Shown here: piece by piece, positions 28,435 through 33,601 of the stretch | Position numbering within the stretch: the stretch's first letter is position 1 | How the letters are laid out: each line of letters opens with the position of its first letter | Assembly (NCBI RefSeq): GCF_041242975.1 | Contig: NZ_CP162488.1 | Coordinates: forward strand, 543,501 to 607,500 | Length of the DNA stretch: 64,000 nt | Direction of reading: 5' to 3' | Source of the DNA: Xanthomonas sp. DAR 35659 | Lineage (GTDB): Bacteria; Pseudomonadota; Gammaproteobacteria; Xanthomonadales; Xanthomonadaceae | Translations under genes and position numbers: made by a program | Notes under the pieces: model-generated | Databases searched by the model: none | Told to the model about the DNA's origin: nothing | Seen by the model: only the letters and a program-made list of their open reading frames with translations

Positions 28435-29484
28435 TCAGGCCAGCGCGGCGTCGATGGTGCGCCCGCGCGACGGCGCCGCGGTGATGTCCGCGTGCACGGT
28501 GCCGGGATGGTCGTGCGCGTCGGCGTCCACCGTCACCTGCATCGGCCGCAGCCCCAGCCGCGCGAACAGCGCCTGGTCGCGCTCGGTGTCCGGGTTGCCG
28601 GTGGTCAGCAGCTTCTCGCCGTAGAAGATCGAGTTGGCGCCGGCGCAGAAGCACAGCGCCTGCAGTTCGTCGCTCATGCTCTCGCGCCCGGCCGACAGCC
28701 GCACCATCGCCTGCGGCATCGCGATGCGGGCCACAGCGATCGTGCGCACGAACTCGAACGGGTCCAGCTCGACCGTGCCGTGCAAGGGGGTGCCGGCCAC
28801 CTGCACCAGGCGGTTGATCGGCACCGAATCCGGATGCACCGGCAGGTTGGCCAGCGCCTGCAGCAGGCCGGCGCGCTGGTCGCGCGACTCGCCCATGCCG
28901 ACGATGCCGCCGCAGCAGGTCTTCAGCCCGGCGTCGCGCACGTGGGTCAGGGTATCCAGGCGGTCCTGGTACTGGCGGGTGTGGATGATCGAATCGTAGA
29001 AATCCGGCGCGGTGTCCAGATTGTGGTTGTAGTAGTCCAGCCCGGCGGACTTCAGCGCCTGCGCCTGCGCGCCGTCGAGCATGCCCAGGGTGGCGCAGGT
29101 TTCCAGGCCCAACGCCTTCACCTCGCGGATCATCTCCGCCACCTTCGGGATGTCGCGGTCCTTGGGCGAGCGCCACGCCGCGCCCATGCAGAAGCGCGAG
29201 GCGCCGGCGGCCTTGGCCTGGCGCGCCTTGTCCAGCACCGCCGCGGTGCTCATCAGCTTCTGCGCGTCCACGCCGGTGTCGTAGCGCTGCGCCTGCGGGC
29301 AGTACGCGCAGTCCTCCGGACAGCCGCCGGTCTTGACCGAGAGCAGGGTGGACACCTGCACCTGCGCCGGATCGAAGTGCTCGCGGTGCACGGCGGCGGC
29401 GCGGTGCAGCAGTTCCGGGAACGGCAGGTCGAACAGGGCGAGCAGTTCCTGGCGTTGCCAGTCGTGTCGGACGACAGCGGACAT
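28435..29484 (-). CDS. bioB: Biotin synthase
   Basis: A 349-residue radical-SAM enzyme. The SAM-cluster cysteines are C55, C59 and C62 in [12 protein letters not shown]. The residues for the sacrificial 2Fe-2S cluster lie in the [14 protein letters not shown] and [10 protein letters not shown] regions, and [21 protein letters not shown] is typical. It inserts sulfur into dethiobiotin. ATG at 29484 is chosen because AGGA lies upstream and MSAVVRHDW fits the family; the open frame extends 22 codons further. It diverges from comF across a 49-base gap. Confidence 0.94.
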
Positions 29485-29533
29485 GGGGGTTTCCTGACGG
29501 TCAGCGGCTGGGAAAGCGGGCAGTCTGGTGAGC

Positions 29534-30259
29534 ATGGATATCCCTGTCAACTTCGCCAGTGACTTTCAGGTTGACGGAAGCTGGCGGCGCCTGCAGCGCT
29601 GGCTGCTGCCGGAGCGCTGCCTGGTCTGCGGCGAACGCGGTGCCGCCGGGCTGGACCTGTGCCCGGCCTGCCGCGTCGCGCTGCCCTGGAACGTCGGCGC
29701 CTGCATGACCTGCGCGTTGCCGCTGCCGGCGCTGGATGCCGGCCAGGTCTGCGGCGCCTGCCAGCGCAAGCCGCCGCCGCTGACGCTGGTCGCCAGCGCC
29801 TGCGTGTACGCCGCGCCGGTGGACGGGCTGCTGCGCCGCTTCAAGTTCCACCAGGATCTGGCCGCCGGGCGCCTGCTGACGGCGCTGCTGCGCGCGCGCT
29901 GCGGCGATCTGGCGCGCCCGCAAGCCTTGCTGCCGGTGCCGCTGCATGCGGCGCGACTGCGCCAGCGTGGCTACGACCAGGCGCTGGAACTGGCGCGGCC
30001 ATTGGCGCGCGCGCTGGGCCTGCGCTTGTGCGACGGACTGCAGCGCGTGCGCGCGACGGCGCCGCAATCCGAACTCGATGCGCGCGCGCGTCGGCGCAAC
30101 CTGCGCCATGCGTTCGCGGTCCGCGCGCCGTTGCCGCAGCACGTGACCCTGATCGACGACGTGATGACCACCGGCGCGACCCTGCACGCCGCCGCGCAGG
30201 CGCTGCGCCGCGCCGGTGTGGCGCGGGTCGATGCGTGGGTGGTGGCGCGCGTGCCGTGA
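29534..30259 (+). CDS. comF: ComF-family phosphoribosyltransferase-like protein
   Basis: A 241-residue ComF protein. The N-terminal zinc ribbon has paired cysteines in [21 protein letters not shown] and CGACQRK. The C-terminal PRT domain has the PRPP-binding motif [18 protein letters not shown] and the [14 protein letters not shown] segment. ComF homologues aid DNA uptake during transformation, though their reaction is unclear. ATG at 29534 is preferred; a GTG six bases upstream is possible. Its 5' codons overlap the probable bioB promoter and operator. A REP element, interrupted by an IS, follows. Confidence 0.88.
29544..29577 (-). promoter_or_regulatory. Candidate bioB promoter with BirA-like inverted repeat
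   Basis: CTGTCAACT (29544-29552) and GGTTGACGG (29569-29577) form an inverted repeat with 16 bases between. This has the spacing of gammaproteobacterial BirA sites (TTGTAAACC...GGTTTACAA), with six of nine positions matching in each half. On the minus strand the left half supplies a perfect -35 TTGACA with a weak -10 CAGACT 17 bases on, so a bound repressor would block bioB. The box lies within the first codons of comF. Confidence 0.45.
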
Positions 30260-30316
30260 GCGTGGGGGTCTATCGTGTGGGGACCCTGGTGGCTGGTAAT
30301 ACCTTCGGAAAGTGTC

Positions 30317-30382
30317 CTGTAGGAGCGGCTTTAGCCGCGACGGGCTTTACAAGGAACGCCTCGTCGCGGCTAAAGCCGCTCC
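30317..30382. repeat. REP palindrome cut by an insertion element
   Basis: CTGTAGGAGCGGCTTTAGCCGCGACGGG and its inverted arm are intact up to GCCGCTCC. The last bases expected (TACAG) are missing here and appear instead at 31612-31616, after the IS element. Joining the two flanks restores GCTCCTACAG exactly. Confidence 0.88.
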
Positions 30383-30389
30383 TTGTATC

Positions 30390-30590
30390 TGGACATGAGG
30401 CCCACGTGGCCTTATGTCTTCCGACTGATCATCGGAGCAGTGCGGGAAGCCCAGTCGCTCCTAAAGCCACGAGCTTGCATTGTAGATTGGCTCCCGCATT
30501 GCATATGCTGGCCCATCGGTGTCCGTACGGTATCCAGAGTCCGCCGCAGGCGTGAACTCGCATCCACAAGGCAGGACCGGGCGCAGCGGT
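30390..30590 (+). ncRNA. Predicted bridge RNA of the IS110 element
   Basis: The left end folds into three units. A 5' hairpin pairs ACATGAGGCC (30393-30402) with GGCCTTATGT (30408-30417). A target loop is closed by TGCGGGA-AGCC (30441-) with GGCTCCCGCA (30489-30498). It contains AGTCGCTCCT (30453-30462), 9/10 identical to the REP side of the target, and TGTAG (30481-30485), complementary to CTACA on the other side. A donor loop is closed by GCTGGCCC...GGTGTCC with GGACCGGGCGCAGC (30574-30587). It contains ACGGTATC (30527-30534), identical to the element's right end, and ACAAGG (30566-30571), complementary to CCTTGT at its left end. This is the IS621-type bridge RNA layout. Confidence 0.8.
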
Positions 30591-30623
30591 GATCGTGTTC
30601 ACCCTACGATGGAGGAATTCCCC

Positions 30624-31595
30624 ATGTCCCCAGTCGTCGGTATCGACGTCGCCAAACACCGTTTCGACCTGGCCATCGACCTGGCCAACGGCAAGTACCG
30701 CACCAAGGCCAAGCTTTCCAACGATCCGAAGGGGTTCCAGGCCCTACGGACGTGGCTGCAGAGCCATGCGCAGGCGGACAGCTGGATCGTGATGGAAGCC
30801 ACCGGCACCTACCACGAGGCCCTGGCTGAGTTCGTGCACGCCTTGGGCTACCGCGTATGCGTCCTCAACCCGGCGCAGACGGCGCTGTATGCCCGCAGCC
30901 AGCTGACTCGGGTCAAGACCGATCGCAGCGATGCCAAGCTGATCGCCAGCTACGGCCTGCGCCATGCGTCGCAATTGCGGCCGTGGCAGCCCGATCCGCC
31001 GGCGCTCAAGCACCTCAAGGCGCTGGTGCGTCGGCGCGAGGACCTGCTGCAGATGCTGCAGATGGAGCGCAACCGCCTGGACGTCGCCGCGCCGGTGGTG
31101 CGCGCCTCGCTGCTAGAGACTATCGGCCAGCTGCAAGCGAACATCGCCCAGATCGAACGGGCCATCGACGACCAGATCGACCAGGATCCTACCCTGCGCG
31201 GGCAGCGCGAGCTGCTGGTCAGCATCGACGACATCGCCGAGAGGAGCGCGGCGCTGTTGCTGGCCGAGCTCGGCGACGTGGAGCGCTTCTCCCAGGCCTC
31301 GGCGGTGACCGCCTTCGCCGGGTTGAATCCACGGCTGCAGGAGTCCGGCAAGCGCAAGGGGCAGGCCTGCATCTCCCGTACCGGCTCCCCACGCCTGCGC
31401 GCCGGCCTGTTCCTGCCGGCCTTGGTCGCCATGACCCACAACCCGGTCGTGCGTGCGCTGAAACAACGCCTGCGCGAACGCGGCAAGGCCAACAAGCAGA
31501 TCATCTGCGCCGCCATGCGCAAGCTGCTGCATATCGCCTACGGCGTGCTCAAATCGCGCACGCCCTTCGACCCTCAAAAGGCCCTTGCCTGTTAG
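30624..31595 (+). CDS. IS110-family DEDD recombinase/transposase
   Basis: A 323-residue IS110 transposase. The N-terminal RuvC-like domain has the acidic set D8 (VVGIDVAKHRFD), E58 (VMEATGTYHE), D100 and D103 (KTDRSDAK). A coiled-coil-like linker follows, then the C-terminal Transposase_20 domain with SIDDIAERSAALLLAELGD and the conserved serine region CISRTGSPRLR. The ATG at 30624 is preferred over one at 30609 because GGAGG lies nine bases before it. It acts with the RNA encoded in its own left end to join donor and target DNA. The frame is complete. Confidence 0.93.
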   Translation: MSPVVGIDVAKHRFDLAIDLANGKYRTKAKLSNDPKGFQALRTWLQSHAQADSWIVMEATGTYHEALAEFVHALGYRVCVLNPAQTALYARSQLTRVKTDRSDAKLIASYGLRHASQLRPWQPDPPALKHLKALVRRREDLLQMLQMERNRLDVAAPVVRASLLETIGQLQANIAQIERAIDDQIDQDPTLRGQRELLVSIDDIAERSAALLLAELGDVERFSQASAVTAFAGLNPRLQESGKRKGQACISRTGSPRLRAGLFLPALVAMTHNPVVRALKQRLRERGKANKQIICAAMRKLLHIAYGVLKSRTPFDPQKALAC

Positions 31596-31611
31596 AGGGG
31601 AAGACGGTATC

Positions 31612-31915
31612 TACAGGGCAAACCGCATCTGACGGGATTGTGGCGAAAGCAGATTGTTGGAGGTGCCCTGGAAGCGCGCGCATGGGCGGTGCGCTTGCCT
31701 GTCGCGAGAAAACGCCGGTGCGTGCTGCGGTGCGCGCGCGTCGGCCGACATGCCGCGGCGGCGCTATGCGCCAGCGGGACGATGGGGGCCGCCATGCAGA
31801 GAAGCGCCTGCGTTCATGGCGACCTCGGCTGGCGCCCGGGTCTGTGCGCATGAACGATGTGCAGACGTGCGCGGCTTTATGATCGTCACTCGGGCAACAA
31901 CGACAGGAGTTTGCG
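31612..31915. other. Gap downstream of the IS; remainder of the REP site
   Basis: It begins with TACAGGG, the displaced end of the interrupted REP arm. Beyond that I see no supportable gene in about 300 bases. A short AT-rich patch with a GACAGGAG ribosome site immediately precedes the lipoprotein start at 31916. Confidence 0.55.
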
Positions 31916-32416
31916 ATGCGCTGGAAGGCTTTGGGTCTGTCGATGGCGCTGTGTGTCTTCGGTGTCACCGGCTGCGGGTACTACGATGCGCCGGACGCCG
32001 CCGCCGCCAGCCCGGTGAAGGCGAAGATCGAATGGCGCCTGGCCAGCCATGCGCCCACCCCCGACTATGTCCAGGCCGACTACCACGGGAAGCCGGTGTA
32101 CCTGGCACCGCAGGCGTTGCTGGTCGTCGAAGAGGCCGCGACCGTGGCGCCCGCCGACAACGACGATGGCCAGCCAGCGCTGGATCTGCGGTTTCCTGGA
32201 CACGGCCAACGCCTGACCCAGGCCACCGAGCAGAACGTCGGCAAGCCGATCGCGCTGCTGGCCGACGGCCAGGTGGTGACCGTGGCCACGGTCATGGCGC
32301 CGTTGCCGGGCGACAGCCTGCGCATCAGCGGGCTGCAGGACGTGCAGGAACAGCAGCGGGTGTTCGCGCTGTTGACCCACGCGCCGGCCGCGCCAGCACA
32401 GGACGCTAAGCGCTAG
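31916..32416 (+). CDS. Lipoprotein with SecDF P1 head-like domain
   Basis: A 166-residue lipoprotein. The signal MRWKALGLSMALCVFGVTGC ends in a lipobox. The mature part contains YLAPQALLVVEEA, a central LDLRFPGHGQRLTQATEQNVGKPIALLADGQVV and MAPLPGDSLRISGL. That pattern (substrate strand, TxxNVGKxxAIxxDG, then GxxxIxG) is the SecD P1 head subdomain found in stand-alone lipoproteins. It could help export or simply reuse the fold. It appears monocistronic, downstream of the IS. The start follows GACAGGAGTTTGCG. Confidence 0.72.
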   Translation: MRWKALGLSMALCVFGVTGCGYYDAPDAAAASPVKAKIEWRLASHAPTPDYVQADYHGKPVYLAPQALLVVEEAATVAPADNDDGQPALDLRFPGHGQRLTQATEQNVGKPIALLADGQVVTVATVMAPLPGDSLRISGLQDVQEQQRVFALLTHAPAAPAQDAKR

Positions 32417-32698
32417 AAGGTGTCGGTGCGATGAGGAGCGGCGGCTGCCGCATTCTCTTCAGACCCTGCGTAACCCTGCGTGGGGCGAGCCGGTGGCCCG
32501 GTGGGCGACGGGCGCGCGCCTGGGGTGCGTGCCTTGGCGTCACGATGTCAGCTTGCGCGCCGGCGAGGCAGCCTTTTGCGCGGTCTTGCATGGTGCTGCG
32601 CATCGGCGATGACTACGCGACTGTCTGGCACGAGGGCCGGCCCGCGCAGGATCGAGTTTCCGAACACGGCGCGCGCCGCGGGTGATCGGCAACAGACG

Positions 32699-33601
32699 CT
32701 AGGCCGCGCGCAGCGCCAATGTCGAGGCGATGCCGGCGAAGATCGCCAGGCCCACCCAGTTGTTGTGCAGGAAGGCGCGAAAGCAGGGCCCGCGTTCGCG
32801 GTTGCGGGCGATGCGGAATTCGTAGGCGACCAGCAGCACCGCGATGCCCAGGCCCGCCCAGTACCAGACCCCCAGCGCGGCGCGAAGGCCGACGAAGGTC
32901 AGGGCGACGAACATCAACGCGTACAGGATGCCCTGCGCGACCAGGTCCAGGTCGCCGAACAGGATCGCGGTGGACTTGGAGCCGGCGCGCAGGTCGTCCT
33001 CGCGATCGACCATCGCGTACCAGGTGTCGTAGGCGGTGGCCCACAGGATGTTGGCCGCGTACAGCAGCCAGCCCAGCGCCGGCACCTCGCCGCGGATCGC
33101 CGCGAACGCCATCGGGATGCCCCAGCCGAAGGCCATGCCCAGATAGACCTGCGGCAGGTAGGTGTAGCGCTTCAGGTAGGGGTAGCTGGCGGCCAGGAAC
33201 AAGCCGACCACGCTGAGGCCGATGGTCAGCGCGTTCATCGTCAGCACCAGCGCGAAGGCGGCCAGCATCAGCAGCGCGAACACCACCAGCGCCTCGCGCC
33301 CGTTGACCGCGCCGGTGGCCAGCGGCCGCGTGCGGGTACGTTCGACCTGCGGATCCAGCCAGCGGTCGGCGTAGTCGTTGATCACGCAGCCGGCCGAGCG
33401 GGTCAGCCACACGCCGGCGGTGAACACGCACAGCGTCCACAGCGGCGGCAGGCCGTCGGCGGCCAGCCACAGCGCCCACCAGGTCGGCCACAGCAGCAGC
33501 AGCACGCCGATCGGGCGGTCGCCGCGCAGCAGCTTCCAGTACTGGCCCAGGCGCGCGCGTGGCGGCAGCGCGGCGGGCGTGTCGTAGCGTTCGTAACCCA
33601 T
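32699..33601 (-). CDS. ubiA: 4-hydroxybenzoate octaprenyltransferase
   Basis: A 300-residue integral membrane prenyltransferase with about eight or nine helices. The two Asp-rich motifs that bind the prenyl diphosphate through Mg are visible: NDYADRWLD near residue 74 and [14 protein letters not shown] near residue 192. It attaches the polyprenyl tail to 4-hydroxybenzoate in ubiquinone synthesis. The start [25 protein letters not shown] is typical of UbiA. The gene stands alone. Confidence 0.93.

Follow-up and report, generated by a model that had tools for sequence, protein, structure and literature searches.

We analyzed a window of 64,000 nucleotides from Xanthomonas sp. DAR 35659 (contig NZ_CP162488.1, positions 543,501 to 607,500 of the forward strand), which carries an intact element of the IS110 group of insertion sequences (IS) at 30382-31612 (1,229 bp plus one CT core), with a repetitive extragenic palindrome (REP) as its insertion site. 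With a probability of about 0.95, we regard it as an intact insertion sequence of the IS621 type with a predicted bridge RNA in its left end. We observed the element and its ends, its scarless insertion, the agreement of the guides in the RNA with target and donor, the covariation of three of the guides with their partners in related elements, and the covariation of the fold in relatives. The element is well supported as a member of the known IS621-type bridge-RNA elements, and is not a new kind of system. The features of the window copy are listed below; abbreviations are left end (LE), left and right target guide (LTG, RTG), and left and right donor guide (LDG, RDG).

30318-30330, reverse strand: match to the REP word
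30319..30383, forward strand: left part of the interrupted REP palindrome, with left target AAAGCCGCTCCT and the CT core at its end
30382..30383, forward strand: CT core of the left junction, common to both junctions and single in empty sites
30384..30623, forward strand: LE, non-coding, carrying the predicted bridge RNA; 240 bp, the same in 5/5 full copies
30391..30419, forward strand: 5' hairpin of the predicted bridge RNA (fold; helix 1 of relatives, 8/11 pairs changed on both sides)
30420..30436, forward strand: second short hairpin (fold; helix 2 of relatives)
30437..30500, forward strand: predicted target-binding stem-loop (fold; helices 3-5 of relatives)
30453..30462, forward strand: LTG AGTCGCTCCT, core CT included (covaries with targets)
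30481..30485, forward strand: RTG TGTAG, complement of CTACA (sequence match and covariation)
30508..30588, forward strand: predicted donor-binding stem-loop (fold; helices 6-8 of relatives)
30527..30534, forward strand: LDG ACGGTATC, same as the element's right end (the two covary in relatives)
30566..30571, forward strand: RDG ACAAGG, complement of left-end CCTTGT (match in this element only)
30624..31595, forward strand: IS110-group recombinase, 323 aa (Pfam PF01548 and PF02371; PDB ISCro4 and IS621)
31585..31612, forward strand: right end with -35-like TTGCCT (sequence pattern)
31611..31612, forward strand: CT core of the right junction, followed by the right target ACA of the REP

Element, insertion site and recombinase

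When the flanks of the window copy are joined, they form a REP in which CTCCTACAG runs unbroken over the junction, with no insertion and no duplication. Of 17 other places in this genome that match the surrounding longer repeat, seven were read; they are unoccupied, align through the junction and show the uncut target. CT stands at both junctions and only once in the empty sites, as in a scarless insertion at a short shared core. An earlier note, made from the letters of this DNA alone, had described an IS110 element in an interrupted REP with exact ends and a shared CT core. The flanks, which rejoin to a REP like the seven unoccupied repeats, bear out the interrupted REP and the core, while the coordinates given there were one base off, the left end being 240 and not 241 bp long. 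The longer repeat that encloses the REP occupies 30263-30383 and 31613-31690 of the window.

The genome (a single contig of 5.4 Mb) contains five full copies of the element and one truncated copy. One full copy (L002) differs from the window copy (L001) by 1 base, and the remaining three (L003, L004, L005) are mutually identical and differ from it by 14 bases. All differences between copies lie from 30893 onward, so that the RNA-coding left end is without change in 5/5 copies. The full copies share the left junction, where ...GCCGCTCCT is joined to TGTATCTGG, as well as the right junction, where ...GACGGTATCT is joined to ACAGG. The same REP base is thus the insertion point in all five, in line with the earlier claim that the element targets REP palindromes. 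Copy L002 occupies another copy of the longer repeat in the opposite orientation, which indicates that both arms of the palindrome are used as targets. The truncated copy (L006, 1501-1779) corresponds to the last 280 bp of the element, and its right flank is ACAAGGAGC, not ACAGG.

Potential targets are abundant in the host. There are 437 AGYCGCTCCTACA sites in the genome as compared with 1 for the reversed control, and 12 sites of the form ending in G; the window itself has 9 REP sites with either ending (A or G), against a mean of 0.00 in 100 shuffles. All 54 Xanthomonas insertions (54/54, the self-duplicated L027 described below excluded) are located at (G/A)AAG(C/T)(C/T)GCTCCT, where the occupied REP variants are AGCC (51), AGTC (2) and AGCT (1). 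The close relatives include X. graminis (91%) and X. sacchari (79%). This locus has some match in 17 other genomes; in the nine relatives that were compared, neither REP words nor element ends occur within 470 nt upstream of the next gene, and therefore the sister species give no clean pair of occupied and empty sites here.

The recombinase matches PF01548 (DEDD RuvC-like, 1.5e-32) and PF02371 (1e-18), both exceeding the curated cut-offs, and at E <= 0.001 it has two distinct relatives among the solved structures, ISCro4 and IS621. The catalytic set is conserved: D8, E58, D100, D103 and S241 align with D11, E60, D102, D105 and S241 of IS621. These positions were taken by hand from the alignment of the two proteins, with the DEDD/Ser set as reported by Hiraizumi et al. 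(PMC11208158). The intact open reading frame and catalytic residues speak against a second reading, compatible with our own, in which the element is of the same type and has since decayed to an immobile fossil. A truncated copy in the same genome speaks in its favor; also against it stand the five full copies at different loci, only 1 or 14 bases apart from the window copy, and the 18 copies found in one sister species. We estimate about one chance in ten for this reading.

Predicted bridge RNA and covariation of its guides

Two covariance models connect the left end with that of IS621. The first (R1) was built from 20 left ends including that of the window copy, with IS621 kept out, and finds the IS621 left end at 36.1 bits; 12 of its 18 sources are matched, those missed being L007-L010, L006 and L074. 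The second (R2) contained no Xanthomonas sequence; its 13 left ends came from Pseudomonas, Stutzerimonas, a Rhodoferax bin and a family member from another genus (L075). It matches 30384-30588 of the window at 139.5 bits and IS621 at 41.7 bits, which supports the IS621-type bridge RNA proposed in the earlier note. Of 17 sources, 13 are matched by R2, and the four control loci (L007-L010) remain unmatched; the E-values of both models are only rough. In the R2 structure 94.6% of the cells pair and 26 of the 48 pairs have two-sided changes. None of 500 shuffles reaches these values, and slid versions drop to 31-47%, although scoring the structure on the alignment that yielded it biases the result in its favor. 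The single-strand fold of 30384-30623 is also stronger than that of shuffled sequences (z -2.74, with 1/200 as strong). A search of 29000-33000 against Rfam, with E up to 1, gave no family match.

The predicted position of the RNA also separates the element from the IS1111 group, whose seekRNA-type RNA lies in the right end. IS1111 elements have a DEDD recombinase and an element RNA guide, as here (PMC11187229); however, they are reported to carry the RNA in the right end and to have longer subterminal inverted repeats (PMC11208160). The non-coding ends of the present element are unequal, the left one having 240 nt and the right one 15 nt before the core (31596-31610). A right end of 15 nt is too short for such an RNA, and the covariance match falls in the left end, which makes assignment to this group highly improbable.

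All four guides fall in the loops and in the order that had been named from the sequence. The LTG matches the left target in 9 of 10 positions, as claimed, and the single mismatch (T in the guide, C in the target) corresponds to an rU:dG wobble with the bottom strand. In IS621, an rG:dT pair has been reported as tolerated (PMC11208160). REPs bearing T at the mismatch position are also occupied (2 of the 54 Xanthomonas insertions).

The earlier note had held that loop sequences failing to co-vary with insertion sites in related elements would speak against a bridge RNA, and we compared guides and sites across relatives. The loci were collected from 20 Xanthomonas genomes (7 with matches, own included), 395 family genomes (10 with matches, the same 7 included), 369 class genomes (11 with matches, own included), 32 contig loci, and plasmid and E. 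coli records. Among 126 loci with a recombinase match, 118 had readable ends (L006, L074, L100, L105, L113, L114, L120 and L121 were dropped), corresponding to 103 distinct insertions and 61 distinct left ends. Guides were extracted via a left-end alignment made without use of the targets. After the removal of 9 insertions with short flanks and 5 self-duplicated ones, 89 insertions with 23 LTGs were left for the LTG test.

Over the non-core bases, the LTGs fit their own targets at 6.86 of 8 positions and those of other elements at 3.51 of 8, and none of 100,000 permutations was as good. Per insertion, the fit was 8/8 in 12 cases, 7/8 in 71, 6/8 in 3 and 4/8 in 3. The RTG (28 guide classes, self-duplicated copies included) fits its own target at 2.61 of 3 positions and others at 2.00 of 3, again with 0/100,000 permutations as good. 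Its switches are clear in distant relatives, such as L102 with CTCTCCC and L103 with CTGACCC. The LDG covaries with the right end of the element in relatives (ACGG, ACAG, ATGG). Covariation of the loops with the insertion sites is therefore supported for the LTG, the RTG and the LDG.

These results also bear on an alternative in which the recombinase protein itself reads the REP and the guide-like words of the left end are remnants or chance. Target choice by the protein was the older view of the transposase (PMC1525189), and a single LTG is common to all Xanthomonas copies, so that guide and protein are inseparable within the genus alone. Across the 23 guides, however, the loop word follows the target; L070 and L104, as well as L107 when read by eye, have other targets with guides matching them; and in vitro recombination by IS621 is reported to need the RNA (PMC11208160). 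We consider recognition by the protein alone very unlikely.

Several observations weigh against our main reading. When the window RNA is folded without constraints, much of its LTG is base-paired and not open. Among the 23 LTGs (94 insertions), 7 fit the target of some other element strictly better than their own, as many relatives target similar REPs, while for the other 16 no other target is strictly better. Three of the 89 insertions (L102, L107, L057) have a fit of only 4/8. In L102 and L107, both kept in the count, the automatic alignment seems to have displaced the guide; L057 is a genuine misfit, and its site probably an off-target one. Finally, R1 misses L074 and L006, both of which have lost their left ends.

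By homology with IS621, the element would be excised as a circle, and transcription and catalysis are likewise proposed by analogy. The pattern TTGCCT-17-TATCTT, which starts with a -35-like word and would form across the core of the joined ends, is a putative promoter, known as a pattern only. It would be assembled when the right and left ends are joined, and would drive a bridge RNA of ~200 nt from about 30391. The first loop of this RNA would pair with the REP: its LTG would bind the bottom strand at AGCCGCTC-CT, and its RTG the top strand at CT-ACA. The second loop would pair with the joined ends of the element itself via the LDG and RDG. A recombinase tetramer would then swap strands at the shared CT, and the circle would be inserted with no target duplication.

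Known relatives and the host REP pool

IS621 of E. coli shares with the present element the DEDD/Ser recombinase (PDB 8wt6, E 1.8e-62), the CT core, a REP target, and a left-end bridge RNA matched by the same covariance models. It differs (locus L111) in protein sequence (~41% identity), in its guide words and in the length of its left end (191 nt vs 240 nt), and its REP is a different one, TATCRGGC-CT. The top-scoring relative among solved recombinases is that of ISCro4 (PDB 9t56, E 1.3e-63), the comparison here being at the protein level. REP-targeting IS110 elements were listed in 2006 by Tobes and Pareja (IS621, ISPa11, ISPpu9, ISPpu10 and ISRm19; PMC1525189), and for ISPpu9, ISPpu10 and ISPa11 every copy was reported in REPs (7/7, 7/7 and 6/6, Table 2 therein). 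Among the loci collected here, the Pseudomonas relatives L062-L067 have the target CCGCTCCTACA, as the element here. An AG repeat has been reported at the ends of ISPpu9 (PMC8450116), unlike the present element.

Durrant et al. (2024; PMC11208160) report that a bridge RNA can be predicted for 85.7% of the IS110-group elements, and that guides covary with targets (5,511 pairs) and with donors, in thousands of pairs. Together with the REP-targeting elements known from PMC1525189, this account of bridge RNAs and their covariation across the group means that the earlier note overrated the novelty of the case. None of PMC11208160, PMC11187229 and PMC11208158 contains the word Xanthomonas, and our searches of open-licence papers gave no published account of this element among the matches listed; the supplements of Durrant et al. 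may well contain it.

The RTG base tracks the ends of the host REPs across seven element-bearing Xanthomonas genomes (G000, G008-G011, G017 and G018 were compared). In the three genomes whose elements have a UGUAG guide, the CTACA:CTACG counts of the host are 437:12, 372:3 and 561:9. In the four genomes with CGUAG-guide elements, these counts are 158:146, 128:232, 94:142 and 12:12. The agreement may represent a single evolutionary change. As expected from the pool, the UGUAG elements have 19/19 insertions at CTACA. Insertions of the CGUAG class are found at CTACG (25), CTACA (9), CTGCG (1) and CTACC (1); the REP pool alone predicts 57% CTACG for this class, and the per-genome p values are 0.29 (G008) and 0.33 (G009). 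Steering of insertions by the third RTG base within a genome is thus unsupported, the insertions being not significantly different from the REP pool. We also set aside a Fisher value of 6e-8 for RTG class versus REP end, which reflects host REP pools and relatedness.

Tandem duplications at the left end and their possible implications

One Xanthomonas copy, one Pantoea copy and ten E. coli genomes show an exact tandem duplication of the left end that starts at base 1 and runs up to the LTG. In Xanthomonas G009 (L027, L110), left-end positions 1-83 come directly after the REP, with the LTG core as their exact endpoint, and the full element comes next. The plasmid NZ_CP117201.1 of Pantoea sp. 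SS70 has the same layout with a 72-bp unit; the right end of this element was not located. The left-end starts are as follows.

L110, 2173 and 2256, reverse strand: 83-bp duplicated unit
L121, 2968 and 3040: 72-bp unit
L122-L126 and L128-L132, 2953 and 3025: IS621, 72-bp unit

Among 5,426 E. coli genomes, a 47-nt query spanning the junction of LTG and left end had partial matches in 369 and full matches at 100% in 10. All ten full matches, when read, consist of the REP, 72 bp and the full IS621, and they occupy four sites: rhlE-ybiA (3), ybiT-ybiU (4), gldA-yijF (2) and prpE-codB (1). The one partial match that was read (L127) is an ordinary insertion, where the REP has the word of the guide. 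Places covering >=80% of a 90-base query for the respective left junctions were found in 1,130, 1,127, 168 and 783 genomes, which are rough upper figures, with joined pieces counted. IS621 thus seems to occupy these junctions in far more genomes than show the duplications, which therefore probably arose in place. The four sites are not necessarily independent, as copies can convert each other.

We put forward, as a tentative and rather doubtful explanation, that the guide gene, being a DNA copy of the target in its LTG, is a latent target itself, that the right-hand bases alone prevent self-hits, and that the duplications are the traces left when the element inserted into its own LTG core and the nested repeat then collapsed. 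Alternatively, the duplications could result if the target and the copy of it within the guide slipped against each other. Uncollapsed self-insertions, in which the right end would be joined to the bases after the LTG, were found in 0 of 5,426 E. coli genomes and 0 of 20 Xanthomonas genomes, and again in 0/20 with a Xanthomonas query shortened to include the word of some G008 copies; simple self-insertion is thereby disfavored. One query for the deletion counterpart, in which a REP would run directly into the sequence beyond the LTG, matched nothing in the E. coli collection, which disfavors simple slippage. With both kinds of product not found, neither reading of the duplications is proven.

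Within the DNA of the guide itself, 20/20 left ends have A or G as the second base after CT, and the target has C at this position (T for L075). This difference may spare the guide gene from self-insertion. Two pieces near 1509 (L117 and L118) contain a REP-like sequence and ~40 nt of left end followed by unrelated DNA, and look like decayed remnants in two genomes. With regard to self-targeting by bridge RNAs, no paper with both a bridge term and a self-target term was present among the matches listed, and neither PMC11208160 nor PMC11208158 uses the words self-target or duplication in its main text.

If self-targeting is true, bridge RNAs carry a cost, the guide gene being a target, which bears on the evolution of these elements and would be relevant to the stability of engineered bridge-RNA constructs. 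Within Xanthomonas, the element provides a clean multi-copy natural case of apparent RNA-guided insertion, in which the guide tracks the REPs of its host down to the single base in the seven element-bearing genomes.
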